Shown: positions 15,925 through 53,201 of the stretch, in pieces
Layout: each line of letters starts with the position of its first letter
How positions within the stretch are numbered: position 1 is the first letter of the stretch
NCBI GenBank assembly: GCA_963921825.1
Contig: OY997592.1
Span: 27,879,730-27,943,729 of the forward strand
Length of the DNA stretch: 64,000 bases
Source: Erodium maritimum
Taxonomy: Eukaryota; Streptophyta; Magnoliopsida; Geraniales; Geraniaceae
Direction of reading: 5' to 3'
Notes under the pieces: model-generated
What the model was told of the DNA's origin: nothing
Database searches by the model: none
Seen by the model: the letters and a program-made list of their open reading frames with translations, nothing else
Translations under genes and position numbers: made by a program

Positions 15925-16303
15925 TCACCCAGTTTTTGTGAATACGTTGCCAGCCACATTTTCTTTTTCTTTATGACAAATACATAAGTTGATATTACAT
16001 TCACATTTAGTCGGATTGAAGCAATCATTCGGACTATTGTATTTCGTAGGGACTGCATATCTCGCTTCAACTTCACCTTCTAAATCTGCAATCGTTATTT
16101 TTTTTTCCTCTTGATCATTGATTCTTAATATAATGTATTTCCATATTCATTTGAATAAAAATGCACGAATAAAAAATATGTATATTCTTCTCTACTAAAC
16201 ATTTTATATGAACTAGAAAAAAAACGAGGGGAGAAAGAAAGTTACTTGAAGCTATGATCAAAAGTGAAATTAGAAAAGTGAGGGCGAGTGATCCCTTCAC
16301 CAT
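15925..16303 (-). CDS. defensin-like secreted peptide gene, copy 1 (first cysteine lost)
   Basis: Exon 1 (16303-16246) encodes a signal peptide, MVKGSLALTFLISLLIIAS. The intron (16245-16086) has a GTAACT donor and a TTGCAG acceptor. Exon 2 (16085-15925) continues in frame to a TGA. The product is 72 residues. The mature part should have six cysteines spaced C-x5-C-x5-C-x-C-x4-C-x-C, but the first is tyrosine here (TAC for TGC, in PTKYNSPNDC), leaving an odd number. The TATA box is intact near 16377-16389. Two-exon genes with this layout are typical of plant defensin-like, NCR-like or LCR-like peptides, which act outside the cell or in symbiosis or defence. The exact family is uncertain. Confidence 0.7.
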
Positions 16304-16376
16304 ATCTTCAAGTATGAAATTAGTAAAATGTGAATTATATGTTTAGCGATGTGTATTGCTTAGAGTGAACACTCAT

Positions 16377-16389
16377 ATGTATATATAAC
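16377..16389 (-). promoter_or_regulatory. TATA box of defensin-like copy 1
   Basis: The minus strand reads GTTATATATAC about 80 bp upstream of the ATG, at the same place as in copy 3. Confidence 0.55.
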
Positions 16390-17405
16390 ATTTTAAATAT
16401 CGTAAATTAAAGAATGAAAAATTGAATCCCCATATTTGAAAATTATATTAAATTTAATATTGTACCAACTTTAAAGGATTTTTACACAATGAGGCATAAT
16501 AAATTTTATTATTTTATGACTTATTTAGCAACTAAGTTGATTTTTGGATTTAATTTAGTATCGTTACCTTATATTCTCCTGATAGGAGGTTGCAGTCGCC
16601 GATAATTGATAGGATATCGATTTTCAAACATTTATATTGTACGACATTAAACGAATACTAAGATGAAAATTTATTCAATGGAAGTCTAATTATATTCAGC
16701 ATTAAAAATAATAGTTCTTGTCTGAAAAATTTATGTAGTTTTATAGTCGCCTGAGAGTAAGATTGATCCACTTATAATAGTTGTTTACATGTCTAACTCT
16801 TTTTAATTTGGAACGGGCAAAATAACTTATGGGATGAGATCCTAAAAACTAGGAGTAAGAGGACAAAAAGAACAGAAGAACACACCAAATTGAAATAAAC
16901 CATTATTCCTTCAATTGCGACCAGTTTCACTACTGCTTTAGTTGGCGTACCCTAATTATTCATATGTGGATATGTTATGTGATGTCTTTTATTCATTTGC
17001 CCTCTTCGAATGCAAATTTCTCGAAAGAAATTTTTACGAGATCCCCACCAACCAAACTTTTGACTTTTGGATCCGTCAAACGAATAATCATATTGAGTCC
17101 TCCTTTTTCCGGACAACACATACAAAGAGACACGTATAATCAATCTCCCTCAATCCTTCTATACGAAACTAAACGATTCATTTCACAACTAAGAGAATGT
17201 AGATAGGTCTTTATTGTGTGGAACCCTCTTTCTTAAGGGACTTATTATGCTTTTACATATAACGGATTAACCCAATTATGGCGAGCCTTTATGCTTTTGC
17301 ATTCCAAAATCGAGAGAGGACATGTAACGAGTCATTGCATTCAATAAATATATAGTTCTCGCTCTTAACATCGAAGCCCTTTGGGTTTTGTTGATGAGTC
17401 AAGAT

Positions 17406-19940
17406 TGTCACGCCCCAAATCCGGTATAACCGAACCCGGAACGTGAAAGGAAGACAAGAACAAAAAGATAGCTAAAAAAATAAGACAACGCTTAGAATCC
17501 ACCACTCAAGCATTAGAGTAAACTAATAAATGTACACTTTGAGTTTTAAGCTCAAGTTCGAACAAAACAAAACTAGATCAAAAGTGTGTACGTCTCTAGA
17601 CAAAACCCAGAAACCCGAACTCTCGCTCCCCTGCTCTTCAACCTTCGAGACGTCCTCCTAATCAGACTCACGATCAATACCTGTAGGAAAAGCAGCAGGG
17701 GGTGAGAATTTCACTCACCGCCACGGATACCCGACTGACCATGGCATACGAGTAAAAAATATTCCAGGAATACACCAACACATTTACCACCCTTTCACGC
17801 AATGAAAACAAACAACAGAGATTACATCCTCAACAAATCAAATTGCAAACCCACACAATATCATGCAATATCAACACACACAACTCACAGTTTCCGGTAG
17901 CAAACCGGCTGGGCCTGGCCTGCCCCGCAATCCTTTTTCCGATCGCCAATCGGAAAGGCGAGCCGACCTCTTCGCGGAACAAATCGCAACACTTTACCGA
18001 TTGCTAGTCGGAAGGTGGGCCCACCTCATCGCGGAACCACGTCTCCCTTCGCCGATGGCGAATTGACAGGCAGGCCATACCTTAACCAACCATCACCACA
18101 TTGATCACCAACACTCAACCAATTATCACAACACACTATCAACTATCGCATTTAACATGTCAAGGCACTACCACCTATCAAGTCATACGAGTCATTCAAT
18201 ACACACGCGAGTTCAACACTCCAAGCGCACAACTAGTCAATCATACAAAAACAACAGACGCTACAGGTATAACACGGCAATTTGCGGAGTATACACAACC
18301 TACGGGCACAACCAGGTACCCACATACAATTCTACATACATGCCGAGTATAATCAACCTACGGGCACAACCAGGCACCCACATGCATTTTTACTAGTAAC
18401 TTTCCCAAGTCAAAAACTGATATCCGGCTACTTTTCCCTACCTCGTAACGCAATCCAAAATGTAAGCTCCAGAAGCGCTCGCGACAACCCGCCTAAAGCT
18501 TCCCCTTTCTGCGATTGGTGGAAAAATCTAAAGTGACGAAACAACACACTTTTTAATACGCAAGCCAACTTCGATTTTTATGAAATTAACGCCCAAATGC
18601 AACCCCGACAAGTACCGATCACTCCCAAACTTCCCAATTACTCGACATTGTCAAAATGGGCACGGAAAGGCCCATTTCGCCCGGCTTGGCGAATTTGCCC
18701 AGAATCGGGAAAACGTCCCTCGGGGCTACGAAAATTCCCATTTTCGTTTCTACAATTCCTAATCATACTAACGCGTTCCCACGCAATTGGCGGAATCAAT
18801 TTCCGATGCCCGAGCATTTTAACTCCGCATTTAAAGTTTCTAACCACATTTTCCGAATTCTCACGAATTACTTCCATAATTCTTTCCGGGTGTGAATTAT
18901 CGACTCGGGGGTCACCCAAGACCACCCGAACACTACAAACCCGAACCCTGGCCAAGTGGGCCCCACACGGCCACACTTGGGCCGTGGGTGACCGGACCGG
19001 ACCGCCACTATCGTGGCCGGTCACAGCCACCGTGGCCCTCCCTCCAACCACGGCTTGGCACGCCACACGGTGGCCGGAGCTCCAGCAAACCTCCCGTCGC
19101 CGGAAAAAATATCCCCTTTTTTCCCCAAAACTTTCCTAACAAGCTCTAGACTCCCATCCACCCATATTTCATCCATTTCTACCACAAACCCAAAATTCAA
19201 CCTTGTCAAATGGAGAAAATAAAGGGTGCCCACCGTAGCAAACGTCGAGAGGATCACGAATACGCAAAAATCAACCCGATTCGTCGGTTGGAACGTCGGG
19301 AAATCACCACTCTTCTTCTCCTCCTTCTCTTTCTTATTCACCTTTCTCTCTTCTCCCCTTTGCTAGTTTTGGCCGGTCACAACACCCACCACACAATTAT
19401 AGATCCAAATATTAAGTGAAATGATTAAAATGCCCTCCCTCTCTTTTGTCTTTTAGCTTTTAAGTCGCGGGTAATGACATCTCCCTCTCACTTCATTAAC
19501 ACATGGTGACATGTGACAAGGTGGGTCCCACTACTCACAAAATATCTTTGTAGATATTTATTAGTCAGATTTGCCAAAATTGGACGTCTCGGGCCCCGTG
19601 CGGGTCCGTTTTTACGAGACTTCCCCGAAATCTCGCGCTTTACATAAAATGACCCAACTAAGACCGTTGCGATGACGGTTGAGCTTTTTGGATCCAAATC
19701 GAGCCTCGAACGGACCAAAACGTCGCTCGGTTGACTTTTTCGTCAAAAAGTCAACTTTTCCTGAATTGGTCAAAAGTTGCCCTAAGTCACCCAGAACTCA
19801 TTTTGGTCGGAATCGGGGTCAGCTTAGGTCCGATATGACCCTCGGGGTCAAGTTTAGGTCCATTTAGGAGGTGCCCAAAATTTAAAATATTTCCCGTTTT
19901 CCACCGACTTGACCGGAGTTGACCAAGAGCGGTCCTTACA
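17406..19940 (-). mobile_element. solo LTR, gypsy family, with AAGAT target duplication
   Basis: The plus strand starts TGTCACGCCCC and ends GGTCCTTACA, the ends shared by the gypsy LTRs elsewhere in the window. It is 2535 bp and flanked by AAGAT at 17401-17405 and 19941-19945. The empty site is visible in unit 2 (GAGTCAAGATAATTTA near 51150). No internal region, so it is a solo LTR from recombination between two LTRs. A short repeat of CTACGGGCACAACCAGG occurs near 18300-18380. Open frames within are not conserved. Confidence 0.92.
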
Positions 19941-20833
19941 AAGATAATTTATGAAAAATGTATTTAGTGGTTAGGACGAACATCTCTACCCCTATCGTTA
20001 ATTGTTATAATTAGTTATGTCTAATAATGTTCAAATTTTCTTAACATTTCCATGTTGAATACCACTTTTGGCAATTCGTAATTATTAAACTTAGTATCCG
20101 AGGTATATATATATATAGTGGTTTAATTTGATTTTCTTAAATATCAAAGAAGATATTGTATTTTTTATGATAATTTGGTGCACTCATGTCACAAAAAAGA
20201 AGTTAAAATAGTTTCTTTCATCAGTGGATTAATTTAGTTAACAAAACTATATTTTTACACAATATTACAAATACTCTTTGCTTATTATTTTTTTACTAAA
20301 AGGTGCAATTTAATTTATTGGAATTTCAAAGATAATAGTAGTGCATCAGGGAAACCCAAAACCACGGTAGAAGAGTTATGTTATGGTATCGAGCCTTTAA
20401 GATTTGTCTACGCATAGCTCTGTAACAAATAAAACGACACACGGGGTTTGTTGGGGAGCCATAAAGGCGAACAGAAATTAAATAACAATGAAGTCGGTGT
20501 CTGTTGTTGAAGGTATTGCCAAGCTGCTGCACATTTTGTAAAATGCGGCCGAACCTGCTGACACCAGCTTCCAAGGGAGGAGAGCGACAATAGTAGATGT
20601 CATTCAGGGATCCCTCCTGATAAAAGTCCCTGAATCCTTGGGTAGAATTCCTGAATCTTCGTTCACCACTTATGAACCTTGCACAAAAAAGACAAAACAG
20701 GTAAAGTAAAACAAATCCAGGGGATCATCCTGGCCTAGAACGAGGATAGAGATCGAGAAGAAAGCCACGGCGGAGGCCAAAGAGGTGGATACACCGATGG
20801 CGGCTTCAATTGTTGTTGTAGGGGCGGCAGGGG

Positions 20834-21100
20834 CTACTCAGTAGAGGGGATCCAGATTGGCAGCGATGGTGATCGAGGGGATGTTGTGGAGAAAAGTGGG
20901 GGTGGGCGATTCATGGGAACCGCAGGCGGCAGAGGTGGTGGTGATCGTGGGGATGCTGTGGAGAAAATTGGGGACAGGCGATTCATGGGAACCGCAGGCG
21001 GCGGAGTAGAGGAGGAAGAGGTGGGACGCCCTAAAGACGGAGTTGGAACACCGATCTGATATCGGGAGAGTCGAAGTCTTCTCAGAGGAGAAGCCTCCAT
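20834..21100 (-). CDS. hypothetical proline/serine-rich frame (MEAS type), unit 2
   Basis: An 88-codon frame from the ATG at 21100. It starts MEASPLRRLRLSRYQIGVP and then holds two imperfect copies of a proline-rich block beginning PPAVPMNR. A 91-codon relative is in unit 3 (52355-52080). I do not recognise a domain. The repeat may be coding (a first exon) or a transcribed leader; preservation of the frame in two of three units is the only support. Confidence 0.35.
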   Translation of the reverse strand: MEASPLRRLRLSRYQIGVPTPSLGRPTSSSSTPPPAVPMNRLSPIFSTASPRSPPPLPPAVPMNRPPPLFSTTSPRSPSLPIWIPSTE

Positions 21101-21561
21101 TGATGTTGGCGGCTGCGAAACCCTAGCAGAGCTATTAGAAACCTAATATTTGAGAATTTAGTTAATACTCTTTCCTTATGGAATGTCAATCTTTTGGATT
21201 TAATTTATATTTTATTAACTTAAAATATGTAAGTATATATCATTTGTTTTCATATATGTTTCTTTCTTTTCCGTTTCAATTTCCAATCAATAGGATATTT
21301 GTATTAGTTCAAATAATAAATGTATGTGGTTTATTTCAATGTATGGATGAAAAGAGTAACTACTTGGAACAATATATTTGAGAAATGTTTTATAGGAGAT
21401 AATATACTTTCATTTATGATTACAAAAATTCTCCCACATCTCAAAATAAAACATTTGAATTTATTCATAATTTTGTGCACTGCACAACTAATTACATACA
21501 TGAATAGCGATCACACACATTACATATATTTTTATTCATTTATTTGTAATATTAATTTGCT

Positions 21562-21940
21562 TCACCCAGTTTTTGTGAATACGTTGCAAGCTACATTTTC
21601 TTTTTCTTTATGACAAATACATAAGTTGATATTACATTCACATTTAGCCAGATTAAAACAATCATTTGGACTATTGCATTTCGTAGGGACTGCATATCTC
21701 GCTTCAACTTCACCTTCTAATAATGCAATCATTTTTTTTTCTCTTGAGCATTGATTCTTAATATACTGTATTTCTATATTCATTTGAATAAAAATGCACG
21801 AATAAAAAATATGTATTTTTTTCTCTACTAAACGTTTTATATGATCTAGAGAAAAAAAATACGAGGGGAGAAAGAGAGTTACTTGAAGCTAGGATCAAAA
21901 GTGAAATTAGAAAAGTGAGGGCGAGTGATCCCTTCTCCAT
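21562..21940 (-). pseudogene. defensin-like peptide gene, copy 2 (acceptor lost, promoter split)
   Basis: Exon 1 (21940-21883) keeps the signal peptide MEKGSLALTFLISLLILAS and the GTAACT donor. Exon 2 (from about 21722 to the stop at 21562) keeps all six cysteines (TKCNSPNDCFNLAKCECN, then LCIC) and has an extra cysteine near the C-terminus (ENVACN). The acceptor that reads GCAG in copies 1 and 3 reads GCAT here, so normal splicing should fail. A solo LTR inserted at 22013, 72 bp upstream of the ATG, separates the gene from its TATA element, now at 25117-25127 and altered (TATACATA). Confidence 0.75.
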
Positions 21941-22012
21941 ATCTTCAAGTATGAAATTTCTAAAATGTGAATTATATGTTTAGCTCTATGTATTCCTTGG
22001 AGTGAACGCTCA

Positions 22013-25000
22013 TGTAAGAACCACTCCCGGTCGATCCCGGTCGAACCGGTGAATTCTAGGCAAGTTTGACTTTCGGTCGGAAAAGTCAACCGATAGCTCA
22101 GGAAGCCATTCGGGACCTTTCCGGGGCCCAAATAGCTTAGCCGCCATCACGGTTAGCTTAGTTGGGCCGTTTCCTTCAGTTTGACTGTAATATTGGTTAG
22201 GTCAAATTTTGGTCAAACTTGGACTTTATATCGGTTATTTTTCCGATAAAATCTTGTAAAGCTGGAAATTATTTAAGTGGAAGTGACCCCACATGAAACT
22301 TGTCATATTTGGCTTGGAGGATGAAAAAGGAGCTTTAATTGACTCTTGTACCCTCCCAAGTTACCTTTAAAGGGATAGGACCTTAAGGGCTTTTTGGAAA
22401 TTGGACAAAATAGGTCATTTAAAGCAACATGAGCACACAACTCAGCTCATTCCCTATTGTTGCAGCCGAAAATCACAAGGAGAGGAGAGGAGAAGAGATC
22501 ATTTCTTGAGTAAGTAGAAAGAGAAGAAAGCTTGGATTTTGGAGCTTGTTCTTAGTCCTTTTGCCTCCATTTTCCTTCCATCTTCTTCATCTCACCATCC
22601 TAGAGGTCTGGATGCTCTCAACTGTCCATTTCATCTACTTTCCAATTCGGGTTTTTGTGGGTTTTTGGCTTGAAGTTGAAGAACTAGCTTTGTGGTTGTT
22701 GCTTGGAGAAGAAGTAGTGAAGTAGGTTGCTTGGATTATGTTTTTGGTTGAAGTTTTGATGAACCCATTGAGGGTGTTGATGTTTGGCAACTTTGGATGA
22801 ACATTTTGGAGTTAGAAGGACTTGGAAATGTGGTTTTTGATTTGATTTTCATGAAACTCGAGCTGGGGAAGAAAGGGGGAGAACCTGGACTGGTTCGCTA
22901 CAGAGCGTGACCTGGACCGGGCCCTGTGCCGGCACGGCAAGCCGCACGGAACGGGCCAGGTACCGGCACGGTGTGCTGCGCGGAACGGACGTGAGTCCGG
23001 CACGGAACCTCGCACGGTCCATGTCAGACTCCGGGCCGGTACGCCGCACAGTCTATGGTGGTTACCGGACCGGTCTATGACACGGTCCATGCCAGATTCC
23101 GGCACGGCCTGTGCTACGGTCAGGGCCGCCTTCCGGATCAAACCTCCAGATCCAAAAACTCTTCCTTTAAGCCCCTTTCGATTTCTAGATCACTTCGTTG
23201 ACCTTGTTTCCATTGTTTGAGGTTTATTCTGTAAATTTTAGGTTGAGGAACACTCCGTTGGTTTACTAATTTTGGTATTGTTGTGGTCCAAGACTGTGAG
23301 CCTGAGCTCAAGAGAAGGAAAGGCCTTGGACCCGAGCTAGAGAGTCGAAGATTACTCCAGAACCCGTGTGAAGAACGGAGGAGCAACTAACCGGCTTTAC
23401 AGTAGATTTTTAGAGGAAGACCTTAAGGTAGGGAAAGGCCTAACTACTCGAGTATTTCATTAATAGTATGCATGTTAGGTTAATAAAATCGGAAAGGTCC
23501 TAGAATTGCCTATAGGATGCGAATAACTAGAATAATCGTCTTTCAATTACTAATAACCGGATGTGTCTAGTATGCATGCTTAGGATGAGAATAACTAGTG
23601 TAACTCGCTTTCAATACTTGGGAATTGTTTTACAGGTAGAGAGGTCGTGATGAGCCCTCGGATTAGTTGTTGTGCTAGGTTCACATGCTTGGTTGCTTAG
23701 TTTGAATAAGATAAGAGTCTAACGAAACTAGCTAAATCGTATGCTTGATTGATTGATTGAATGTTTACATGATTGGTTGATTGATTGAATGTTGTATGAT
23801 TGAATGCTTGAACAGATGATCGAGTATGACTGGTTGTACCAAGGGGTATGATCAGGTGATCGATGGACCGTTGGATCGTGACAGGTAAGTATAACGGTAA
23901 GTGTAATGATTGAATGGATGTCTTTGGTGTGTTTTGGTGAAAGTGTGATTCGATAAGCATTCGTTGGTTGATGTGTTATGGGTGTTTCCTTGTTCTTATT
24001 CTTAGAATGTTTGGTTGTTCGGTATGGTACTTACACTGGGGGGGGGGGGGGGGGGTAATCCGGTGGTGTTATAGTAGTTGGTGTTGGCAGATCCTGTGGG
24101 ATAATGGTTGGTTATTGGACCCTACGGGGCATTGATTATTGGAGCCTGCGGACATTGATTATTGGACCCTGCGGGGCATTGATTACTGGAGCCTGCGGGC
24201 ATTGATTATTGGACCCTGCGGGGCATTGATTTCGGAACTTGTGGGCAATTGGATGTTTACCCTGCGGGGAAATGGTTACTGGTGTTTTCACCCAAGTGTA
24301 TGCGTCCTATGGGAGCACTACATTGGTTCCTTATGACATATGGTCCTTTCGATGCATTTCCGAGAATTCTGACGATGAGCATCCCTTTGGGCTGGTTTCC
24401 GGTGCCCCGATGTATGTGCCTCCTCTGGACCGAGGGAAAATCTGATATGATATGGATACTCTGGTGGATCGGAATATGGGAACCGATGTGACACCAGAAT
24501 CTATCCGTGGATCGGAGGCTTGAGAAAGCAAGTGATTGGTGTGCTATTAATTGTTCCCATTTTTGTAGTTATGATACTTTATAGTACTTTTCATGGATCC
24601 TTTTAAGTTATTGCAATCTTTAAGAATATGTAACTTTTCTCATTCATTCTGATTATTAGTGTTCAATTGCTTAATAGTATTTAAAGTTTTACTAGCATTT
24701 CATTGTTAATCATATTTAAATCGTTATTTGCGTTATCTTGTTAAAGCAGTTTCATTATTGATCTAAAGGTTGAGTTGTTTACGATTATTCCTACTGAGCG
24801 TAAGCTCACCCCTTTAGTTTTCTTACTGTTTTACAGGCGTACCTGATGTCTAGTGAGTTCGAGGCTCGGGAGCTTCCGGACGTCTTGGGGATTATTATAG
24901 AGTTGTGTTGGTCGTTTGTGCTAAACACTATTTATCTTACCCTTTATGTTGAGCTTTGACTCATATTTGCAGTTTTCGGATTATTTATTTATGAGTATTT

Positions 25001-25109
25001 GATGGAGTTTATTTGTATTTTTAAAGGATTTATCAATTGTTTATTATCTTTCTATTATTAACTCAGGTCACGTCTCGTGTCCGGTCAAAACCGGATTTGG
25101 GATGTGACA
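22013..25109 (+). mobile_element. solo LTR, gypsy family, with GCTCA target duplication
   Basis: It starts TGTAAGAACC and ends GGGATGTGACA, 3097 bp, flanked by GCTCA at 22008-22012 and 25110-25114. No internal region. It holds a run of 18 G (24038-24055) and a short tandem repeat of TTGATTATTGGACCCTGCGG type (24105-24245). The stretch TGTGACA at the end matches the other gypsy LTRs. It sits in the 5' region of defensin-like copy 2. Confidence 0.92.
24038..24245 (+). repeat. poly-G run and GC-rich minisatellite in solo LTR
   Basis: Eighteen consecutive G are followed, after 50 bp, by 4-5 diverged copies of a 20-24 bp unit around GGACCCTGCGGGGCATTGATT. Confidence 0.8.
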
Positions 25110-25932
25110 GCTCATATCTATGTATAACATTTTCAATATCGTAAATTAAAGAATGAAAAATGGAACCTCCATATTTGAAAATTATATTAAATTTAATATT
25201 GTACCAACTTTAAAGGATTTTTACACAATGAGGCGTAATAAATTTTATTATTTTATGACTTATTTTGCAACTAAGTTGATTTTTGGATTTAATTTAGTAT
25301 CGTTACCTTATATTCTCCTGATAGGAGGTTGCAGTCACCGATAATTGATAGGATATCGATTTTCAAACATTTACATTGTCCGACATTAAACGAATACTAA
25401 GATGAAAATTTATTCGATGGAAGTCTAATTATTTTCAGCATTAAAAATAAATTTTTAAATATAGTTGTCGTCTGGAAAAAAATTATGTAGTTTTATAGTC
25501 GTCTGAGATTAAGATTGATCCACTTATAATAGTTGTTTACAATAACTTATGGGATGAGATCCTAAGAACTAGGAGTAAGAGGACAAAAAGAATAGAAGCA
25601 CACACCAAATTGAAACAAACCATTAATCCTGCAATTGCGGCCAGTCTCACTACTGCTTTAGTTGGCGTACCCTAATTCTTCATATGTAGATATGTTATGT
25701 GATGTATTTTATTCATTTCCATCTTAAAATGCCAATTTCTCGAAAGAAATTTTTACGAGATCCCCACCAACCTAAATTTTGACTTTTGGATCCGGCAAAC
25801 GAATAATCATATCGAGTCCTTCTTTTTCCGGACAACACATACAAAGAGACCCGTATAATCAATCTCCCTCAATCCTTATATTCGACACTAAACGATTCAT
25901 TTCACAACGAAGAGAATGTAGATAGGTCTTTG

Positions 25933-26457
25933 TGTTGGATGATAATGAAAAATATGATGGTAAATATCATATTAATCTTTTTATTAAAATTCTGATTTAT
26001 TTAAAAACTTTATAAGACTAATAATGTGAGTTAATTAGAATTGACTGACAGTCAATTCTAGGAGGAATTCATGGGACTTGTCACCCTATGAATTCCCCAA
26101 TTTGCCCTTTCCGAAAGGCTATAAATATTCACATAATTAGTCTTATTTTACACACATCAAAAACCATCTCTAAAATAGTCTCCCCTTTACACTTTCTCTA
26201 TTCTTTGTTACTGGTGACTTTCTCGACGGTTTTGAGCTCGCCGACGTTAATCGTTGTATCCTGGGAGACCGTTGCCTATACGGGGCAATAAGTGTCTTAA
26301 GGAAAGTGGAGTACCACGCCTCGATTAAACTCCAATTTACTTAATCCTAATCAGTAAGCTAGCTGATTGGAAAGGTTATTCTAAATTCGTTTTGTAATTT
26401 CTATTATTATTATTATGATTTTTTTTATTGTTGATATACTAACCCCTATATCCTACA
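25933..26457 (+). repeat. 5' LTR of LARD
   Basis: 525 bp, TGTTGG...CCTACA. A TATA-like box (CTATAAATATT) lies near 26119 and would place the RNA start around 26150. The word AATAAGTGTCTTAAG is at 26287-26301. Confidence 0.9.
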
Positions 26458-26459
26458 AT

Positions 26460-26474
26460 CTTAAGACACTTATT
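26460..26474 (+). promoter_or_regulatory. primer-binding position of LARD, complementary to its own LTR
   Basis: CTTAAGACACTTATT starts two bases after the 5' LTR. It is the exact reverse complement of AATAAGTGTCTTAAG in the LTR (26287-26301; also 50787-50801 in the 3' LTR). It lacks the TGG start expected when a tRNA 3' CCA end is the primer. Confidence 0.7.

Positions 26475-27569: not shown

Positions 27570-27571
<2 letters not shown>

Positions 27572-27611
<40 letters not shown>
27572..27611. repeat. TA microsatellite
   Basis: About 20 TA dinucleotides in a row; insertion site of the adjacent MITE. Confidence 0.9.
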
Positions 27612-27613
<2 letters not shown>

Positions 27614-27911
27614 CTTGGTATCAGGTACAAACCACCCCCCCTCCTTATTGTGCAAACTACGAACCAATCTGAGTCATAGGATCCCCCCAAAGTGATGTCA
27701 GCAGAGCGCACCAGATGCTGACACGTGGGCAATAAATATATAAAACACCGCACCTTATTGTGCAAACTACGAACTCACCAGGTGCTGACACGCGGGCGCG
27801 CGCGCGCAGAGTACTGATAGTTTGCGTAGCACGGTGCTGATAGTTTGCGCGCACAGTGCTGATAGTTTGCATTTTTACTAAACTATCAGCACCGTGCTTG
27901 TAAACTATCAG

Positions 27912-41362: not shown

Positions 41363-44146
41363 TGTCACGCCCCAAATTCAGTAGAACCGAACTCGAAACG
41401 CGAACGTTTAAAACAATAAAACATTTTCAATCCTTTTAAATAAATCACTTTAAAACCATCAAGTAGTTAATCAAAATAATTATTTACAACTCAAAAGTAC
41501 GTCCCAACAAGCGGACAAAAAAAATACAAGTGTACGTCGCTAGACTCAAAAGTAAACCCGGACTCCCGCTCCTAGCTCTTCAAGGTTCGGAAGCTCACCT
41601 AGTCCTTCCTGCGACCACTACCTGTAGGAAAAGCAGCTAGGGGTGAGCGTTCGCTCACCACCACGGATAACAGACTGACTACGGCATACTTAGCAGACAA
41701 TGCCGGTAACACCAACAACAAGCCGACTGACACACACAAACTGTTACTTTCCTCAACCGACTCAACACTCGGACCCGTAATGTACACCCGACACAACGAT
41801 TGACGACTTCCTCCAAAGACGCGACAGATAACCACGCAACACCCAAGATCACTAAGGATCGCACACCAAACAATATCACAAAGGATCGCACTCCAACTGC
41901 TCAGTAACCCCCACGCCCTTTACCGATCCCTGTAAGGCCAGGCGGTCGACCTGTCGCACTTTTCCCGACACAAAGTCGGATCAGGCTGTCGACCTGTCAC
42001 CCCAATCCACGCACACGCGGCCAGGACCCCTTTCCTCACAGGCGGGCCCCCTACCTCGTCTGGACATGCAGACGCGTGCGATCACAGGACCCCCGTTATT
42101 ATGAAGCGGGCCCCCAACCTCAGGTAACCACAATCACAATCACAAACAAAGTTCAACAAACAACAACAACAACGGTTTGACACTCCACAAGCACTCATGG
42201 CAACCCAAGACACCAACGGTAAAACACTGGTTCGACAACCCCACAGGCACTTAAGGCAACCCAAAACACCAACGGTAGAACACGGGTTCAACAACCCCAC
42301 GGGCACTCAAGGCCACCCAAAACACCAACGGTAGAACACGGGTTCAACAACCCCACGGGCAATCATGGCCACCCAAGACACCAAAAGTAAAGACACGGGC
42401 TCTCATGGCCACCCAAGACACAGCAGTAAAATACGGGCTCTCATGGCAACCCAAGACACAACAGTAAAATACGGGCTCTCATGGCCACCAAAGACACAAA
42501 TTAAACAATCAACCTCCGGGCATAACCAAATGCCTCCAGTAATTCTAATATCGAAAGTTCACTGCTCCTACGACACTACTAAGTGTCACATGCATTTCTA
42601 TTGTTCGATACGTTCCCGTATCATACGACACCACCCGGTGTCGCCTGCCTTTCTAATATTCGATAAACCTACTTAACCCACGACACCCAATTGTCACATG
42701 CATTTCTACTGTTAACTTTCCCTAGTCAGGGCCGAGATCCGGCTACTTTTCCCTACCTCGTATGCCTTCTCCAAAAGCGCACAAACAAGCTCCGGCGTGA
42801 TCTCGATCACTCTCCTAGCTTTCCCTTTCCTCTGTCTGCGGCACGATCTAAAAATAACACAATTTTAAATACTTTTAAGCTTGCAGGCATAAACTGAATA
42901 TTCATAAACTTGACGCCCAAATGTAACCCCGACAATGTCGATCACTCCCAAACTTCCCAAAATTACTCGACATTGTCGATAATGGACCCGGAAAGGCCTG
43001 TTTCGCCCGACATGGCGAATCTGCCCGGGTTTTGAAAACGGCCTTCCGGGGCTCCGAAAATTCCCGTTTTCGTTTCTACGGTCCTAGAATAATTCAAGGG
43101 TTCCTAAGCACTCGACGGAATCAATTTCCGACTTCCGAGTCATTTAATTTGCGTTTAGAGTTTCTAAACCCGTCAATTACAACTTTTACAATTTAATTCC
43201 AAATTTCGATCCGGGTGTAGATTAATGACTCGGGGAACGTCCTAAACCACCCGAACACGAAACCCGTACACCCGAGCACGTGGGCCCCACCCGGCCAACC
43301 TTGGCCGTGGGTGGCTAGGGCATTTTGGGCCCGGCTCACCATGGTTGTGGCTGGCCCTAGCTCCGGCCAGCCACCCCATGGCCGGCCAGCCACCACCCAC
43401 GGTGGCCATAGCTCCCCCCGAGCCTTCTGTCACCGGAAAACGCTCATCTCTTCGCTTCAAACACCTCCAACAAACCCCACACCTCAACTCATCCGTATTC
43501 AACCAATTTCAAACCAAACCCTAACTTTTAAACTTAGAAAAACGAGAATCGGTTAGGTGCTCACCGTAGAGAATGTCGATGTGAGCTTGAATCTTCTATC
43601 GTTGAGACGATCCAATGGTTTGATGCTCGTGAATAGTGGCAAAACCCTAGCAAGCCTTCTCTTTTTCTCCCCTTTTCTCTCTTCCTTCTAGCTCCTTTCT
43701 CTCTCTAAAAAGTCACCCTTTTCTCCTTTTTTTTGTAAGTGGCCGAACCATCCTATTTGCTTCCCTTTTGTTTTGTTTTAAAAAGTAACAAATAATACTT
43801 AATTACAAAACTAACACTAATGTAGTCTTCTCTTGTCTTGTCCAAAAACCTAACACCACCACATAGTTGACATGTGGCCAAGTGGGTCCCACACCTTTTT
43901 GGAAAATATCTGCTAGACATTTTCCAATCAGATTCGCGAAATTCGGACGTTTCGGGCCCCGAACGGGCACTTTTTCCAAGAAATTACGAAAATCCCCGGA
44001 ACTCACTTTGGTCGATATCGGGGACAACTTAAGTCCGGTATGACCCTCGGGGTCAAATTTATGTTCATTTAAGTGTCTGTATAAATTTTTTAAATTTTCC
44101 CGTTTTTCGCAGATTTGATTGGTGTTGACCGGGAGTGGTTATTACA
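41363..44146 (-). repeat. 5' LTR of G4
   Basis: 2784 bp from TGTCACGCCCC to GGTTATTACA. It has a deletion of about 180 bp near 43990 compared with the 3' LTR, and it keeps a minisatellite that the 3' LTR has lost. Confidence 0.88.
42175..42490. repeat. LTR minisatellite, unit about 58 bp
   Basis: About 6 diverged units around CACGGGCACTCAAGGCCACC and CAACCCACG-type joints. It is the reverse complement of the array in the solo LTR at 48515-49215. Confidence 0.8.
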
Positions 44147-44389
44147 ACGGGCCTCGAACGGACCAAAACGTCGCTCGGTTGACTTTTACTGCAAAAAGTC
44201 AACTTTTCCTAAATTGGTCAAAAAGTTGCCCTGAGTCACCCAGAACTCACTTTGGTCCATATCGAGGTCAACTTAAGTCCAATTTGACCCTCGGGGTCAA
44301 TTTTAGGTTCATTTAGGTGTATGTCCAAAATTTTAAATTTTTCCGTTTTTCCGCCGATTGACCGGCGTTGACCAGGAGCGGTCTTTACA
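44147..44389 (-). repeat. 5' LTR of G3, outer part
   Basis: Continuation of the LTR interrupted at 37489, ending GGTCTTTACA next to ATCAG (44390-44394). Confidence 0.9.
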
Positions 44390-44577
44390 ATCAGCACCCC
44401 CGCGCGCGCGTGGTCAACACGCGCACGCTTACTGGTAGAGGCGCGCGCGAAGCGGCCACGTGTCAGCATCGCGCGCGCTCTGCTGACGTCACTTTGACTG
44501 CATCCTGTGGCTTAGATTGGTTTGTAGTTTGCACAATAAGAGTGGTTTTTACTGGATGGCTACCCTATATATATATA

Positions 44578-44837
44578 GGATAACAATCAGGTACAAACTT
44601 GTATCTTTCGTCAGAACGTAGAACTATCAATCTGGGCCCTTGGATCGTAGAATTAATGGCCCAGATTTAATGCATATCTTTTAATATCTTTTTAATTAAT
44701 GCATATCTTGTAATTGATTTCGTAATCAATCACCACCGCCCCCCCTGAATTTCGGTGGCCATCCGATCTGGATAATCCATGGTCCAGATTAGTTCTACGT
44801 TCTGACCCGAAATAGGGTTTGTACTTGATTGTTCCCC
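44578..44837. mobile_element. second TA-flanked MITE, 260 bp
   Basis: Inverted ends read GGATAACAATCAGGTACAAA and GGGGAACAATCAAGTACAAA and continue with GTCAGAACGTAGAACTA. TA repeats flank both sides. It is non-coding and lies 12 bp from the first MITE. Confidence 0.8.
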
Positions 44838-46847
44838 TATATATATATATATATATAATTTTCTCTACGGTTTGAATTTAATAGAAAACAAATTGGAATT
44901 ACGTTCCTAAACGGTTTTCTTCAAATTCAAGATAAGAGAAACAAACTTGGAGTTATTCCTAAACGGTTTTCCCTTGATTCAAGAAACAAATTGGAACTAG
45001 TTCCTAAGCGGTTTCTTATTCATTGATCTTGTTTCTTGGAAACACGTGGAGATGATCAACAAATTCGAATTCATACAAAATTCATGGTCGAGGGAAAGAA
45101 ACTTGGAATTTTAATTCCTAAATGTTTTCCCAAGAGAAACAAACTTGAAACTCAATTCCTAAACGTGTTTCTTATTTTTTTTCAAGAAGAAAACAAATTG
45201 AAAATAATTTTCCAAAATGGTTTTCTATTTTGAAAAAAAAAACGTATTTTCCACAACGGATCGTGGAAAATACGTGGAAAAGGAAAATTAACATTTGTTT
45301 CAAGATTAATTTCCAAGGAAATTATATATTCTTGAACAAATTTCGAATTCATATGGAATTCGAAAATGAAAGAAACAAACTTGGAATAAAATTCCTAAAC
45401 GGTTTCTTTAAATTCAAGAGAGAAACAAAGTGGAATATTTCCTAAACGGTTTCTTATTTTCCCAAAATTATAAGAAGGAAATAAATTGGAAATATTTCTG
45501 AAACGATCTACTATTTTCCAAAAGGGAATTTAAATATCTCCTTAGGAAAACGGTATTTGTAAAATTGATCGTTCTTGTTTCCTGGAAACACGTACAGATG
45601 ATCAACAAATGGATTCGTGAAATTCGTAACGTATATCTTCTTCGGTTCTAAATGTAGAACATGTACGAATAGATAAAAATGAGAAGTGTTTCAACGAATT
45701 GAAAACTATACGATCAAAAATGACAAATTGAATACTATAAAAGATCGATGTGGATCTAAAAAACAATTTGATCATCGAATGTATCGACTTCTCATTGATA
45801 TAGTTAATTTGATCTTTGTTCAATTAATCGATTTCTGTTTCGTTGTGAAACAAGGTAGAATTATTAAACTTGGACTCTCAAAATTTAATTGAGAATTAAA
45901 AAAATCAAAGTTGATTTTATGACCAAATTGATTAATTTCAATCTTGGGTAGCTATGAAAGAAAAGGGAAACCTTTCGCATAATTACCCGTCAATGTGGGG
46001 GTCGATCCCATTACTAAAGAGAAATTCTTGACGTAAAGTTCTCGGGTAACCAAGATTCGTGTCCAAGTTATGTGTGCATAATAAAGCATCAACTAATAAG
46101 GCACGAAACTTGAGTCAACACGTGTCATTGACATACCAACTGATCTCAAACGAGAGTTATTGCCTTTGATCTCTCAAAAGTTAAATCGAGATTTAGTTGG
46201 AGAAACATCAAAGGGAATGTGACTAATACCCGGACCATTTAAGACGTCATGTGAAGGAAAATTCAACCTAGTTGACTGGAGATCCCAAAATCTAGGTTCA
46301 ATGGGCCAACCTAACTACATAAACCTTATAAGGTCACTATGGGGGGTTAAACCTGTGTCCATTCCTATGATGTAGAAACAGTGACGTAAAACGTGTTGAG
46401 TATTCTTTGATACAAGTTATCGATTTATAAGACTAGTTTGATTAGTGACCAATTAATCGGTTCTGTTTCATTACGAAACACGTTAGAACGATTAAATTTG
46501 GATTCTTAAATCAAGCAAATTTTTTACTTTGACCAAGTTGAATGATTTCAATTTTGGATAAATACTTGGAAATATGGGGGTCGGTCCCAGTACACAGAAT
46601 ATTTCCGATCGACTAAGATCCGTGTCTACGATATACGAGTATAATTCAGTAGCTACTAATAACACACAGAACTTGAGTTGACACAACAACTGATCTCAAA
46701 CGAAAGTTATTGCCTTTTGATATTTCAAAGGATAACACCGCGGATCCGCTAATCTAAGTGTTAAATTAAGATCAAGTTGAGAAAAAGACATCCAAAGGAA
46801 TGTGATTAAAGCCCATTTAAAGGCTTTATGCGAAGGAAAACCCCAAC
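44838..46847 (+). other. LARD internal region, right part
   Basis: Non-coding. From 44880 to 45500 it is built of diverged short repeats around TTCCTAAACGGTTTTC and AGAAACAAACTTGGA. From about 45890 a block with GGGGGTCGATCCCA, AAGATTCGTGTCCA and ATCTCAAACGAGAGTTATTGCC occurs twice (45950-46380 and 46490-46847 continuing at 49922). Structured, but no protein motif. Confidence 0.6.
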
Positions 46848-49800
46848 TGTAAAACCCACTTCGTTTTAAAAGAATAGTAAACTGAAATTCGAAACTTGGA
46901 GGTAAGCTTTTGTAAACAAGTGGGTCAAAGGGAAAAGTCAAAAAAAAATGAAAGAGATTCAGGCTCGGACAAGGCCTAGCGCGGAGGCCCAATCCCAGCT
47001 GGCCCGACCCATTTTTCGCCAGAAGCCCAAGCCAGATGAGGGCTTGGGTATAAAAGTCGAAATTAGGGATTGAAACCCTAATTTCGCAGCCTCACTTCGA
47101 GCTTCCCCCCTTCTTCATCTTCCTCCTTCGTCAGTGCCGTCCCCGACCCCTCGTCTCTCCCCTCTCCGGTCAGCTTAAGTCTCCGGCACCATAATCCGAG
47201 TCCCCCTTTCCCTCTTCTCCGTTCAACAAAACAACCGCCGCCACTACGCCCTCGCCCCGAGCTTCCCGACCCCTCTCCGTCTCTTCCCCGTTCAGACGTG
47301 CCGCCGCCGTCGACCTCGCCTCCGAGCCACCATCGTCCCCAACCTCTCCCTCGTTCGGATCACCTCCTCCATCCAGCTCCGTTCTCCGGTCCGTCCCGCC
47401 CACGACCCGAGCTCCTCTCGCCTCTCTCTCCCGAGCCTCCATCGTCGGCCTCTCTCGGATCTGAGCCGCCGCCACCGCCCTTTCTTTTCCCCCTACGGTT
47501 AGCCCCTACCAGCGTGCGACCCTGGTCGGCCGAAATAAAACCCGAGCCCTTTTTCCCCTTTTTGTTTTCTGTCCGAGCTTTGTGTTGGATCTGAGCAAAT
47601 CTGTGCAACTGGATTTGAATCTTTGGGTTTGAGTAAGAACAGAAAATTTTTGGTTTAAAATAAAATCAGAGTTATATAATAAAAGGAGTTTCAGAAACGT
47701 TTTTAAGTTAAAATGGTATTAACTAGTTTTGAATTAAATCTGGTGTGTCTTGGGTTGTTGAACGATTCTTGGGGAACCTCAAACGGTTGAGCTGGAGGTT
47801 TAATTTGGACTTAAAACGAGACTAAAAACGGGATGTCGAATCGGATACCTCGGGAATCGTGCCCGAAACCTGGGTATCAGAGAACGTGCACCGGGTTTGT
47901 GCTCGGAGCCCGAATACTCGAACCCGTTTCGTCGTAGTTCCACTTTTAGCCCGCTCGAGTTTAAAGGGCAACTGTTAAACCCAAATCGAAACCGTCGTAC
48001 CGTTTATTTATCTTCGGAACCGCTTTTGATTGTGACTTTCGTTTAAATTAGAGTCCAGCTTCGATCGAAGAGAAGACCGGAGTTAGACCTAGACGCGGAC
48101 TTCGCCCTAGAAGACGGTGTTGGCTCGGTCGTCAGCAGCTAGGAGACGCTGCTGTGGTATCGTCTTGAGGTAGCGAAAAGTAGCCGGATCTCGGCCCTGA
48201 CTAGGGAAAGTTAACAGTAGAATTGCATGTGACACCGGGGTGTCGTGGGTTAAGTAGGTTTATCGAATATTAGAAAGGCATGATACGGGAACGTAGCGAT
48301 TATTAGAAAAGCATGTGACACTTAGTAGTGTCGTAGGAGCAGAGGACTTACCGATGTTAGAATTACTGGAGCCATATGACCATGCCCGGAGGTTGATTGT
48401 GAACTTATCGATATTAGCAGTACTGGAGGCATATGACCATGCCTGGAGGTTGATTGTGAAACTGTTGACATTAGGACTGTTGGAGGCATTGGTTATGTCG
48501 GAGGTTGATTGTGTATTTTCGTGTCTTGGGTGGCCATGAGTGCCTGTGGGGTTGTTGAACCCGTGTCTTTACTATTGGTGTGTCTTGGGTGGCCATGAGT
48601 GCCCGTGGGGTTGTTGAACCCGTGTCTTTACTGTTGGTGTGTCTTGGGAGGTCGTGAGTGCCTGTGGGGTTGTTAAGCCCGTGAGTTACTGTTGGTGTGT
48701 CTTGGGTGGCCATGAGTGCCTGTGGGGTTGTTGAACCCGTGTCTTTACTGTTGGTGTGTCTTGGGTGGCCATGAGTGCCTGTGGGGTTGTTGAACCCGTT
48801 TCTTTACTGTTGGTGTGTCTTGGGAGGCCGTGAGTGCCTGTGGGGTTGTTAAGCCCGTGAGTTACTTTTGGTGTGTCTTGGGTGGCCATGAGTGCCTGTG
48901 GGGTTGTTGAACCCGTGTCTTTACTGTTGGTGCGTCTTGGGTGGCCATGAGTGCCCGTGGGGTTGTTGAACCCGTGTCTTTACTGTTGGTGTGTCTTGGG
49001 AGTCCGTGAGTGCCTGTGGGGCTGTTAAGCCCATGAGTCACTGTTGGTGTGTCTTGGGTGGCCGTGAGTTCCTGTGGGGTTGTTGAGCCAGTGAGTTATG
49101 GTTGGTGTGTCTTGGGAGGCCGTGAGTGCCCGTGGGTTGTTGAGTCCGTGTTTTACTGTTGGTGTCTTGGGTGGCCATGAGTGCATGTGGAGTGTTGAAC
49201 CTGTGTTGTTGCTGTTTGTTGAACTTTGCTTGTGATTGTGACTGTGCTTGCCCGAGGTCTGTTGAGGAAGGTAACGGGTTGTGAGTGTAACAGGTCGACC
49301 GCCTGGCCCGACCTTGTGTCGGGGAAGCGCGTGATTGAGGGAGGTTACTGAGCAGCTGGTATGCGATCCTTTGTGATCTTGTTTGGTGTGCGATCCTTTG
49401 TGATCTTGGGTGTTGTGTGGTGGTCTTTTGAGTCCTTGGAAGATGCCGTGATCGTTGTGTTGGGTCTACCTTACGTGTCAGAGTGTTGAGTCGGTCGAGG
49501 AAGGTAATAGTGGGTGTGTGTCAATCGAAGTGCTTGAGTTGGGGATAGTGATCCCCGGTGTTGAGTTTGTTGTTGGTGTTACCGGCTTTGTCTGCTGATT
49601 ATGCCGTAGTCAGTCTGTTATCCGTGGTGGTGAGCGAACGCTCACCCCTAGCTGCTTTTCCTACAGGTACCGGTCGCAGGTTGGACTAGGAGAGCTTCTG
49701 AAGCTTGAAGAGCTAGGAGCGGGATTCTGGGTTTATTTTGAGTCTAGCGACGGATACTATACTTTTGTCCACTTGTTGGGACGTATTTTAAGTTGTAAAT

Positions 49801-49916
49801 ATTATTTTGATGAACAGTGGTGTTTTTAAAGTGATTTAGTGTAAAAGGTTCAAAAATGTTTTGTTGTTTTAAAGGTTCACGTCCTAAGTTCGGTTTACTA
49901 AAATTGGGGCGTGACA
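46848..49916 (+). mobile_element. solo LTR, gypsy family, with CCAAC target duplication
   Basis: Starts TGTAAAACCC and ends GGGGCGTGACA, 3069 bp, flanked by CCAAC at 46843-46847 and 49917-49921. Rejoining the flanks restores a CAACCTAGTTGACTG sequence also seen near 46265. It contains a GC-rich pyrimidine tract (47090-47500), a 58-bp minisatellite and, near 49630, the CTCACCCCTAGCTGCTTTTC block shared with G3 and G4 LTRs. Confidence 0.92.
48515..49215. repeat. minisatellite, about 12 units of 58-59 bp
   Basis: Units contain GTGTCTTGGGTGGCCATGAG, TGCCTGTGGGGTTGTTGA and CCCGTGTCTTTACTG. Every third unit or so is a variant with GGGAGGCCGTGAGTG and TTAAGCCCGTGAGTTACT, giving a higher-order pattern. 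Confidence 0.9.
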
Positions 49917-49921
49917 CCAAC

Positions 49922-50436
49922 CTAGTTGACTGAAGATCCCAAGATCTAGGTTCAATGGGACAACCTAATTGCATAAACCGTGTACGGTCACTGTTGGGGT
50001 CCAACCCCTAGTCCATTCCTATGATGCAAACTAGTGACATGTTTAGGATAAGCATTTCTTTAAATGATTCCTTGCATCAAGAGTACTGAGCAAAGTGAAT
50101 CACCTATGTGAGAGGAAGTGGGGTCGCTTCAAGGGTGGCTAATGGGGCTAGTCATCTTAAACTCTTGCAGAACCAGGTAGTGCTCATGACCATAACGGAC
50201 ACACCCATGAGAACCAAAACTGTTCGTGTTGGTTCTTGTGTGGGGTATATTATCATTTGCATAAACGACAGAATAGTTCAAGGACATCGCGTCTACTAGT
50301 TAGTCAGCAGATTAAATATACTTTCACAAGGGAAGGTTCAAGGATGAAAATCTACCTATCCTATGCAGGTATCGACTTTGAGAAATCACCACCTCCTCGT
50401 TATCCTCTCTTTCACCATCACATTTTTGTGGGGGAT
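49922..50436 (+). other. LARD internal region, 3' end
   Basis: Non-coding. Ends in a polypurine tract (GTGGGGGAT at 50428-50436) directly before the 3' LTR. Confidence 0.6.
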
Positions 50437-50958
50437 TGTTGGATGATAATGAAAAATATGATGGTAAATATCATATTAATCTTTTTATTAAATTCTGATT
50501 TATTTAAAAACTTTAAGACTAATAATGTGAGTTAATTAGAATTGACTGACAATCAATTCTAGAAGGAATTCATGGGCCTTCTCACCCTATGAATTCCCCA
50601 ATTTGCCCTTTCCAAAAGGCTATAAATATTCACATCATTAGTATTATTTTATGCACATCAAAAACCATCTCTAAAATAGTCTCCCCTTTACACTTTCTCT
50701 ATTCTTTGTTCTTGGTGACTTTCTCGACGGTTTTGAGTTCGTCGACGTTAATCGTTGTATCCTGGGAACTGTTGCCTATACGGGGCAATAAGTGTCTTAA
50801 GGAAAGTGGAGTACCACGCCTCGATTAAACTTCAATTTCCTTAATCCTAATCAGTAAGCTAGCTGATTGGTAAAGGTTATTCTAAATTCGTTTTGCAATT
50901 TCTATTATTATTATTATGAATTTGTTTATTGTTGATATACTAACCCCTATATCCTACA
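50437..50958 (+). repeat. 3' LTR of LARD
   Basis: 522 bp, nearly identical to 25933-26457, with AATAAGTGTCTTAAG at 50787-50801. Confidence 0.9.
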
Positions 50959-52079
50959 CTTTATTGTGTGGAACCCTCTTTCTTAAGGGACTTATTATGC
51001 TTTTACATATAACTGATTAACCCAATTATGGAGAGCCTTTAGCCTTTTGCATTCCAAAATCGAGAGAGGACTTGTAACGAGTCATTGCATTCAATAAATA
51101 TATAGTTCTCGCTCTTAACATCAAAGTCTTTTGGTTTTTGTTGATGAGTCAAGATAATTTACGGAATACATATTGATTGGTTAGGACGAACATCTTTATC
51201 CCTATTGTTAGTTGTTATAGTTAGTTGTGCCTAATAATGTTGAAATTTTCTTAACATTGCCATGTGGAATACCATTTTTGGCAATTCGTAATTATTAGAC
51301 TTAGCATCCGAGATATATATAGTGGTTTAATTTGATTTCTTAAATATCAAAAAAGATATTGTATTTTTTATGATAATTTGGTGTACTCATGTCACGTTCA
51401 AACCTTCCATATTCTCGACCTTTCTATATATTTAAGGAGGATGTGACAAGTATAAGAAGTTAAAACAGTTTCTTTCATTAGTGGATTAATTTAATTGACA
51501 AAACTATATTTTTACACAGTATTACAAATACTCTTTGCTAATTATTTTTTTTTACTAAAAGGTGCAATTTCATTTATTAGAATTTCAAAGATAATAGTTG
51601 TGCATCAGGGAAACCCCTGACCATGGTAGAAAAGTTATGTTATGGTATCGAGCCTTTAAGATCTATCTACGCATAGCTCTATAACAAATGAAACGACACA
51701 CGGGTTTGTTGGGGAGCCATAAAGGCGAACAGAAATTAAATAACAATGAAGTCAGTGTCTGCTGCTGAAGGTATTGTCCAGTTGCTGCATATTTTGTAAA
51801 ATGCAGCCGAACCTGCTGACGCCGGCTTCAAGGGAGGAGAGCCGCAATGGTAGATGTCATTCAGGGATCCCTCCTGATAAAAGTCCTGAATCCTTGGGTG
51901 GAAGTCCTGAATCTTCGCTCACCACTTATGAACCTTGCAAAAAAAGACAAAACATGTAAAGTATAACAAATCCAGGGGATCATCCTGGCCTAGAATTGGG
52001 ATAGATATCGAGAAGAAGGCCACAGTGGAAGCCAAGAAGGTGGATACATCGATGACAGCTTCAATTGTGGTTGTAGGGG

Positions 52080-52355
52080 CTATAGGGGCTGCTCAGTAGA
52101 GGGGATCCGGATTGGCGGCGGTGGTGATCGAGGGGATGCTATGGGGAAAAGTGGGGGTGGGCGATTCATGGGAACCGCAGGCGGCGGAGGAGGTGGTGAT
52201 CGTGGGGATGCTGTGGAGAAAATTGGGGACGGGCGATTCATGGGAACCGCAGGCGGCGGAGTAGATGAGGAAGAGGTGGGACTCCCTAAAGTTGGAGTTG
52301 GAACGTTGATCTGATATAGGGAGATTCGAAGTCTTCTCAGAGGAGAAGCCTCCAT
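52080..52355 (-). CDS. hypothetical proline/serine-rich frame (MEAS type), unit 3
   Basis: A 91-codon frame from the ATG at 52355, starting MEASPLRRLRISLYQINVP, with two PPAVPMNR blocks. It is the same frame as 21100-20834. Function unknown; coding status uncertain. The proline-rich part crosses the unit 2/unit 3 boundary at 52239. Confidence 0.35.
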   Translation of the reverse strand: MEASPLRRLRISLYQINVPTPTLGSPTSSSSTPPPAVPMNRPSPIFSTASPRSPPPPPPAVPMNRPPPLFPIASPRSPPPPIRIPSTEQPL

Positions 52356-52823
52356 TGATGTTAGCAGCTGCGAAACCCTAGCAGAGCTATTAAAAACCTA
52401 ATATTTGAGAATTTAGTTAATACTCTTTCCTTATGGAATGTCAATCTTTTGGATTTTATTTATATTTTATTAACTTAAAATATTATTTATGTAAGTATAT
52501 ATCATTTGTTTTCATATATGTTTCTTTTTCTGTCGTTTCAAATTCCAATCAATGGGATATTTGTATTAGTTCAAACAATAAATGTATGTGGTTTATTTCA
52601 ATGTATGGACGAAACGAGTAAATACTTTGAACAATATATTTGGGAAATGTTTTATAGGAGATAATATACTTTCATTTATCATTACAAAAATTCTTCTACC
52701 ACTCAAAATAAAACATTTGAGTTTATTCATAATTTTGTGTGTTGCACAACTAATTACATACATGAATAGCGATCACACACATTACATATATGTTTATTCA
52801 TTTATTTGTAATATTATTTTGAT

Positions 52824-53201
52824 TCACCCAGTTTTTGTGAATACGTTGCCAGCTACATTTTCTTTTGCTCTATGACAAATACATAAGTTGATATTACATT
52901 CACATTTAGTCAGATTAAAGCAATCATTCAGACTATTGCATTTCGTAGGGACTGCATATCTCGCTTCAACTTCACCTTCTAAATCTGCAATTATTTTTTT
53001 TTTCTCTTGAGCATTGATTCTTAATGTACTGTATTTCTATATTCATTTGAATAAAAATGCACGAATACAAAATATGTATATTCTTCTCTAATAAACGTTT
53101 TATATGAACTAGAAAAAAAATACGAGGGGAGAAAGAGAGTTACTTGAAGCTATGATCAAAAGTGAAATTATTAAAGTGAAGGCGAGTGATCCCTTCTCCA
53201 T
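52824..53201 (-). CDS. defensin-like secreted cysteine-rich peptide, copy 3 (intact)
   Basis: Exon 1 (53201-53144) encodes a hydrophobic signal peptide, MEKGSLAFTLIISLLIIAS. The 159-bp intron (53143-52985) has GTAACT and TTGCAG ends and splits an asparagine codon in phase 1. Exon 2 (52984-52824) completes a 72-residue product ending VFTKTG. The mature part has all six cysteines, C-x5-C-x5-C-x-C-x4-C-x-C (TKCNSLNDC, FNLTKCECN, INLCIC). Signal-peptide exon plus one cysteine-rich exon is the layout of plant defensin-like, NCR-like and related secreted peptides, which work in defence, pollen-pistil signalling or symbiosis. The C-x-C pairs differ from classical eight-cysteine defensins, so subfamily and role are open. 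A TATA box lies 80 bp upstream. Of the three copies only this one shows no lesion. Confidence 0.78.

Follow-up and report, generated by a model that had tools for sequence, protein, structure and literature searches.

Candidate secreted cysteine-rich peptide genes in 3.16-kb tandem units of Erodium maritimum, where intact copies stand next to mutated and transposon-broken ones

Arabidopsis has been described as carrying 317 defensin-like (DEFL) genes in 46 cysteine-pattern subgroups, including the species-specific AtLURE1/CRP810_1 cluster of six genes with 80–95% identity, in which functional copies stand beside a pseudogene (PMC3525529). The NCR genes of legumes are reported to consist of a signal-peptide exon and a mature-peptide exon with four or six cysteines (PMC9515463), an aspartate preceding the second cysteine (PMC7314904), and in NCR13 the cysteines occupy positions 4, 10, 15, 23, 28 and 30 (PMC11637438), whereas defensins are given as having eight or more (PMC7230169, PMC7314904). 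Short peptide genes of one or two exons often escape general gene finders (PMC3924332). Here, we analyse a stretch of 64,000 nucleotides of the Erodium maritimum genome (assembly GCA_963921825.1, contig OY997592.1, positions 27,879,730 to 27,943,729; hereafter, the window), in which an earlier note had described a tandem triplet of two-exon genes for six-cysteine secreted peptides. We consider it probable that these genes belong to a lineage-specific family of small cysteine-rich peptides, predicted to be secreted, which has spread as 3.16-kb tandem units and is still partly functional; on the best reading, the family evolves by birth-and-death. The term lineage-specific is applied because relatives are absent from the searched libraries and the copies are recent.

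All three copies in the window lie on the minus strand and share a 58-nt exon 1, a phase-1 intron of 159–160 nt that starts with GT in each, and a 161-nt exon 2 (Table 1), and the positions, splice sites and cysteine spacing given in the earlier note were all verified in the sequence, as were the three different fates that it assigned to the copies. Copy 3, the sole intact copy within the window, carries no lesion, has the spacing C-x5-C-x5-C-x-C-x4-C-x-C and yields the predicted spliced product MEKGSLAFTLIISLLIIASNLEGEVEARYAVPTKCNSLNDCFNLTKCECNINLCICHRAKENVAGNVFTKTG. Copy 1 retains its splice sites and has its first cysteine changed to tyrosine. In copy 2, AT replaces the acceptor AG at 21724–21723, and a 3.1-kb insert resembling a solo long terminal repeat (LTR) lies 73 bp 5' of the ATG; since the insert sits between the TATA-like box of copy 2 and the ATG, this copy bears two lesions, the second of which adds to the earlier account. 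Cysteine clustering is not usable alone as proof of such genes, because the window holds 11 places with six cysteines in a span of 23 residues (21 rows, vs 0.95 rows per simulated 64 kb), two of which are copies 2 and 3. The evidence for real genes is instead the preservation of the gene model across copies.

A search of the 763-Mb assembly with the 378-bp gene of copy 3, in which 38 of 38 candidates were scored and the counts are lower bounds, returned at least 39 matches, full or partial, which fall into five clusters spread over four chromosomes, so that the word triplet proved too narrow. Two clusters are on C1 (13 matches at ~49.9–50.1 Mb and 15 at ~135.2–135.5 Mb), and one each on C2 (4 matches), C5 (4 matches, namely the three of the window and a fourth ~27 kb before it) and C6 (3 matches). 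The 3.16-kb unit recurs in these clusters, and in the 135-Mb cluster of C1 it is arranged head to tail, with two genes 3104 bp apart. When the exon 2 protein was searched against the genome, 95 matches were obtained up to E=10, and every one of the 32 with E<0.001 fell in the five clusters, as did 33 of 33 matches of the signal exon; the gene, exon 2 protein and signal exon searches recognised no further relative outside them. The remaining 63 exon 2 matches (E 0.013–2.5) were considered as distant paralogues and rejected: the six of these 63 that were read (L073–L078; matches are numbered with the prefix L) are copies of one dispersed repeat, with ~83–95% identity among themselves in the longest alignments, and in L073, L076 and L078 the part that aligns lacks Cys1, Cys5 and Cys6. 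This repeat, which contains internal near-repeats and weakly mimics exon 2 in the protein search, is probably present in dozens of copies in the genome.

The 39 matches gave 30 gene models, the other nine being partial matches that were left out, and 23 of the 30 span both exons. Among these full-length copies, 12 are wholly intact (copy 3, L009, L010, L013, L015, L016, L017a, L018a, L018b, L020, L021 and L026) and 17 keep the ATG, the GT and AG, the full set of six cysteines and a frame that stays open as far as codon 57, which goes against the suggestion in the earlier note that a single copy might be functional. The donor GT is retained in all 23 and the acceptor AG in 22. The five core-intact copies with an altered tail comprise L012, which has an early stop, L024, which has lost its stop, and L022, L023 and L028 with a one-base deletion; in these last three, all from the C2 cluster, the deletion is common, lies past the core and creates a new tail (NVFQQLGEAN in L022). 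Upstream of the gene, the TATA-like box TATATATA, whose function is putative, is kept in 20 of 23 full-length copies, being absent in copy 2 and different by one base in L018a and L021, and AATAAA is found in 23 of 23. A sigma-70 promoter scan is not applicable to plant DNA.

Retention of the core was compared with two controls. In a neutral simulation along the family tree at the adjacent noncoding rate, with the gene model scored in 2000 runs and indels excluded, 7.2 intact cores were expected (standard deviation 3.2) against 17 observed (P=0.001), and cysteine losses numbered 5 against 14.0 expected (P=0.04); the topology of that tree derives from an analysis that includes the frameshifted copies L022, L023, L025 and L028, whose rate values were therefore set aside. 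In the second control, noncoding column patterns were moved onto the gene, preserving real rate variation and relatedness, and the expectation was 7.5 (standard deviation 3.2; P=0.0006), with intron patterns alone giving P=0.0018 and patterns of the untranslated regions and 3' flank alone P=0.0054. Substitutions were counted by parsimony in 19 in-frame copies, the four frameshifted ones being excluded here, yet kept in the retention and fixed-site tests. Nonsynonymous changes fell below expectation in codons 21–57 (28 vs 43.9, P=0.007) and in the signal (14 vs 22.9, P=0.03), exceeded it ~1.7-fold in the tail (30 vs 17.7, P=0.005, uncorrected for the choice of region) and amounted to 72 vs 84.4 over the whole gene (P=0.09). 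The gene and ~240 bp upstream show a divergence of ~0.05–0.06, as opposed to 0.07–0.13 in most of the remaining unit, and the exons up to the core end diverge less than the near flanks (Wilcoxon P=0.0001) and the intron (P=0.036), the copies not being independent in these comparisons. Constraint on the reading frame is likely, not strong. The comparison of synonymous and nonsynonymous change proposed in the earlier note, extended to the whole family, thus gave a ratio near 1 overall, with the core below and the tail above expectation.

An intact gene would encode a precursor of 72 residues, in which exon 1 and the beginning of exon 2 would form the signal peptide, probably cleaved at VEA|RY, and the mature peptide of ~45 residues would comprise three disulfides in a 23-residue core followed by a variable tail of ~15 residues. 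Beyond the gene anatomy, secretion, cleavage, disulfides, expression and role are all inferred, the hydrophobic stretch and the cleavage site having been judged by eye; the hydrophobic N-terminus and the conserved cysteine pattern fit the broad class of plant secreted cysteine-rich peptides. Like defensin-like peptides, it would most likely target a microbe or a partner cell from the extracellular space, and many near-identical copies would supply dose as well as tail variants. Its role would most likely lie in defence or in cell–cell signalling, defence being slightly favoured because of the general habit of such families. An AlphaFold2 model of exon 2, built with 18 family rows, has three short strands in the core and, at low confidence, no helix of four or more residues; 25 of its 52 residues have a pLDDT of 70–90. 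Searches of 18 members against Pfam and a search of NCBIfam returned no relative, which is consistent with an uncatalogued family, and Rfam gave nothing at gathering scores. A zf-AN1 match of one member (E 0.13) was taken as chance, and sequence matches in the PDB (E 0.77–1.7) were unrelated. Short core strings were not found in the literature, which does not establish the family as unpublished. Matches to the spacing formula in the plant literature concerned zinc-finger proteins and Citrullus peptides; in the latter case, the formula is that of the potato carboxypeptidase inhibitor and the overall pattern differs.

Self-comparison of the window defined the tandem unit as 3157 bp from start to start, and the array consists of three gene-bearing units and the beginning of one more (Table 1), the unit ends being arbitrary, since they follow the phase of the repeat where the retrotransposon is inserted. 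The 3.1-kb units of the earlier note are therefore real as repeats, but the copies are now not 3.1 kb apart because three LTR-type insertions intervene. The smallest of these separates copy 1 from copy 2 and lies less than 200 bp into unit 2; it and the insertion upstream of copy 2 look like solo LTRs, judging by their ends, target duplications and length. The LTRs of the large retrotransposon (25933–26457 and 50437–50958) are identical at 502 of 521 aligned sites (3.6% different), while the units differ from each other by 6.1–7.5%, and the duplication is therefore probably older than the retrotransposon insertion.

Table 1. Peptide gene copies, tandem units and insertions in the window (positions count from its first nucleotide).
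Feature	Position	Strand	Remarks
Unit 1, partial, with copy 1	15338..17208	-	
Copy 1	15925..16303	-	exon 1 16246–16303, intron 16086–16245, exon 2 15925–16085
Unit 2, with copy 2	17209..25932	-	interrupted by insertions 17406–19940 and 22013–25109
2.5-kb insertion	17406..19940		TG...CA ends; 5-bp target duplication AAGAT; solo-LTR-like
Copy 2	21562..21940	-	exon 1 21883–21940, intron 21723–21882, exon 2 21562–21722
3.1-kb solo-LTR-like insertion	22013..25109		target duplication GCTCA
LTR retrotransposon with nested elements	25933..50958		parts units 2 and 3; target duplication CTTTG/CTTTA
Unit 3, complete, with copy 3	50959..54115	-	3157 bp
Copy 3 exon 2	52824..52984	-	161 nt; end of signal region, six-cysteine core, tail, TGA
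Copy 3 intron	52985..53143	-	159 nt; GT...TTGCAG
Copy 3 exon 1	53144..53201	-	58 nt; ATG, hydrophobic signal segment, ends in phase 1
Putative TATA-like box	53278..53285	-	~80 bp 5' of copy 3 ATG
Further truncated unit, start only	54116..54588	-	93% identical to 50959–51431; ends before the gene

Several observations weigh against a family that is still partly functional, and many of them would be expected if an ancestral peptide gene had been trapped in a multiplying unit, all copies of which now decay neutrally as a dead tandem repeat. Of the 39 matches, 16 do not span both exons, including seven modelled ones (L017b, L027, L029, L031, L032, L033 and L038) that are truncated or incomplete, and six of the 23 full-length copies have core lesions, namely copies 1 and 2, L011 (Cys4>Tyr), L014 (Cys1>Phe), L019 (Cys2>Phe) and L025 (a frameshift and Cys1>Ser), with several transposon insertions in the array besides. 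Whole-gene omega, the ratio of nonsynonymous to synonymous rates, is ~1.0–1.2, and over codons 21–57 or 35–57 it ranges from 0.5 to 1.0 by set (~0.68 for 21–57), not significantly below 1; as the lesioned set includes the core-intact L012, L024 and L026, and the intact set lacks L026, the contrast between these sets was left unused. A cruder fixed-site test of 19 critical sites, the tail read-out of which covers copies other than L023 and L028, gave P=0.045 with base matching and 0.10 without. The divergence of the intron (0.059) is close to that of exon 2 (0.055), the 100 bp upstream are likewise almost as conserved as the exons, and 50959–51118, which lies at a distance from the gene, matches it in conservation (0.04–0.055 in 7–8 copies), so that gene conversion or some other constraint may contribute. 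Further points against concern the product: the charge of the mature peptide is mild in copy 3 (~+2.8) and near zero in L013 (~0), so that strong membrane attack is not implied, the confidence of the structural model is low (mean pLDDT 60, pTM 0.36), and a Foldseek search of the exon 2 model against the PDB found no match. Nevertheless, a dead repeat appears unlikely, given the excess of kept cores over both controls and a gene region less diverged than most of the unit.

The unit might alternatively be a mobile element, or a passenger of one, with the peptide frame a part of the element; the presence of clusters on four chromosomes, at similar identity, would fit, as would the recurrence of the unit segment 51546–52385, probably an older dispersed repeat, at C9:44.3 Mb and C1:80.0 Mb (in a search that scored 40 of 1217 candidates). 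However, the peptide exons were found in the five clusters only, the tandem copies run head to tail in a single orientation and the unit contains no open reading frame (ORF) of at least 150 residues, all of which make this explanation improbable. We attach equally little probability to true membership of the plant defensins or of the NCR (late nodulin) peptides of legumes. Two exons with the signal in the first, six cysteines, an aspartate before Cys2 and the C-x4-C-x-C end speak for it, against the lack of any Pfam match, a cysteine count of six rather than eight and a third loop of one residue vs seven in NCR13; Nodulin_late (PF07127) was matched neither by the peptides nor anywhere in the genome, the latter carrying little weight since control genomes were also unmatched. 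The suggestion of an undescribed defensin-like or NCR-like subfamily thus holds as to resemblance and the absence from the searched libraries, without establishing membership. Besides the partly functional tandem family that we prefer, a bolder proposal can be made, namely a new class of secreted peptides with a double C-x-C core and no relatives found elsewhere in its genome, amplified into five clusters, in which signal and core are selected and the tail after Cys6 is driven to diversify; this we regard as tentative and somewhat short of an even chance. If true, the tail would behave like that of peptides engaged in an arms race or in mate recognition.

The surroundings of the array contain other repeats. 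On its minus strand, the segment 51546–52385 carries a proline-rich frame (MEASPLRRL...) with a 72-bp tandem duplication, and a foldback element at 54589–55020 adjoins the last tandem unit, its 193-nt arms being 83% complementary and built of ~30-bp repeats containing TTTAGGGTAC. Near one end of the window, 383–3911 and 3912–7070 form a 3.5-kb direct duplication with 95–97% identity, an inverted partial copy of which (96%) lies near the opposite end, at 62407–63689. Broken ORFs on the minus strand at 6967–9899 resemble a Helitron replicase/helicase. A 59-bp tandem repeat of 11.8 copies occupies 48521–49206, and a related short array is found on the opposite strand at ~42185–42402.

The main points of interest are the unusual spacing of the core, the fast-changing tail and the clarity with which the fates of the copies can be read. 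With intact genes next to mutated and transposon-broken ones, the array documents birth-and-death among tandem peptide genes directly and, if expressed, the peptides would add a cysteine pattern that the searched libraries lack. Since the diversity in Arabidopsis is already so large, the general view is unchanged by this family alone.

In comparison with defensins, the predicted product is likewise small, cysteine-stabilised and secreted, and differs in that the intact copies encode six cysteines instead of eight. The C-x3-C helix motif, the mark of the cysteine-stabilised alpha-beta fold, is absent from the peptide. With six-cysteine NCR peptides it shares the two exons, the signal in the first of them and a mature length within the 20–50 residues reported (PMC9515463, PMC7314904, PMC11637438, PMC7230169), as well as the C-x5-C start, the aspartate before Cys2 (C-x4-D-C) and the C-x4-C-x-C end. 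The NCR exon layout recurs here, except that the last signal residues are encoded in exon 2, and against the single NCR compared, NCR13 (loops x5,x4,x7,x4,x1), the loops x5,x5,x1,x4,x1 agree at positions 1, 4 and 5 and differ at 2 and 3. Plant knottins and inhibitors also have six cysteines, and short strands recur in the predicted core, whereas none of the seven inhibitor or antimicrobial loop patterns taken from the source, such as that of the squash trypsin inhibitor (x6,x5,x3,x1,x5), agrees with the one found here (PMC7565491). AtLURE1, likened by description, has six genes and a precursor of ~90 residues, as opposed to 72 residues and five clusters with a minimum of 39 matches here, and its expression and pollen-tube role are known; what it has in common with the Erodium family are clustered, near-identical predicted secreted peptides with six cysteines and a CxC near the C-terminus, encoded by intact and broken copies (PMC3525529). 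Taken together, the family resembles the six-cysteine DEFL, NCR and LURE peptides, a likeness that does not amount to proof of membership, and on these descriptions AtLURE1 is its closest parallel in genome behaviour.

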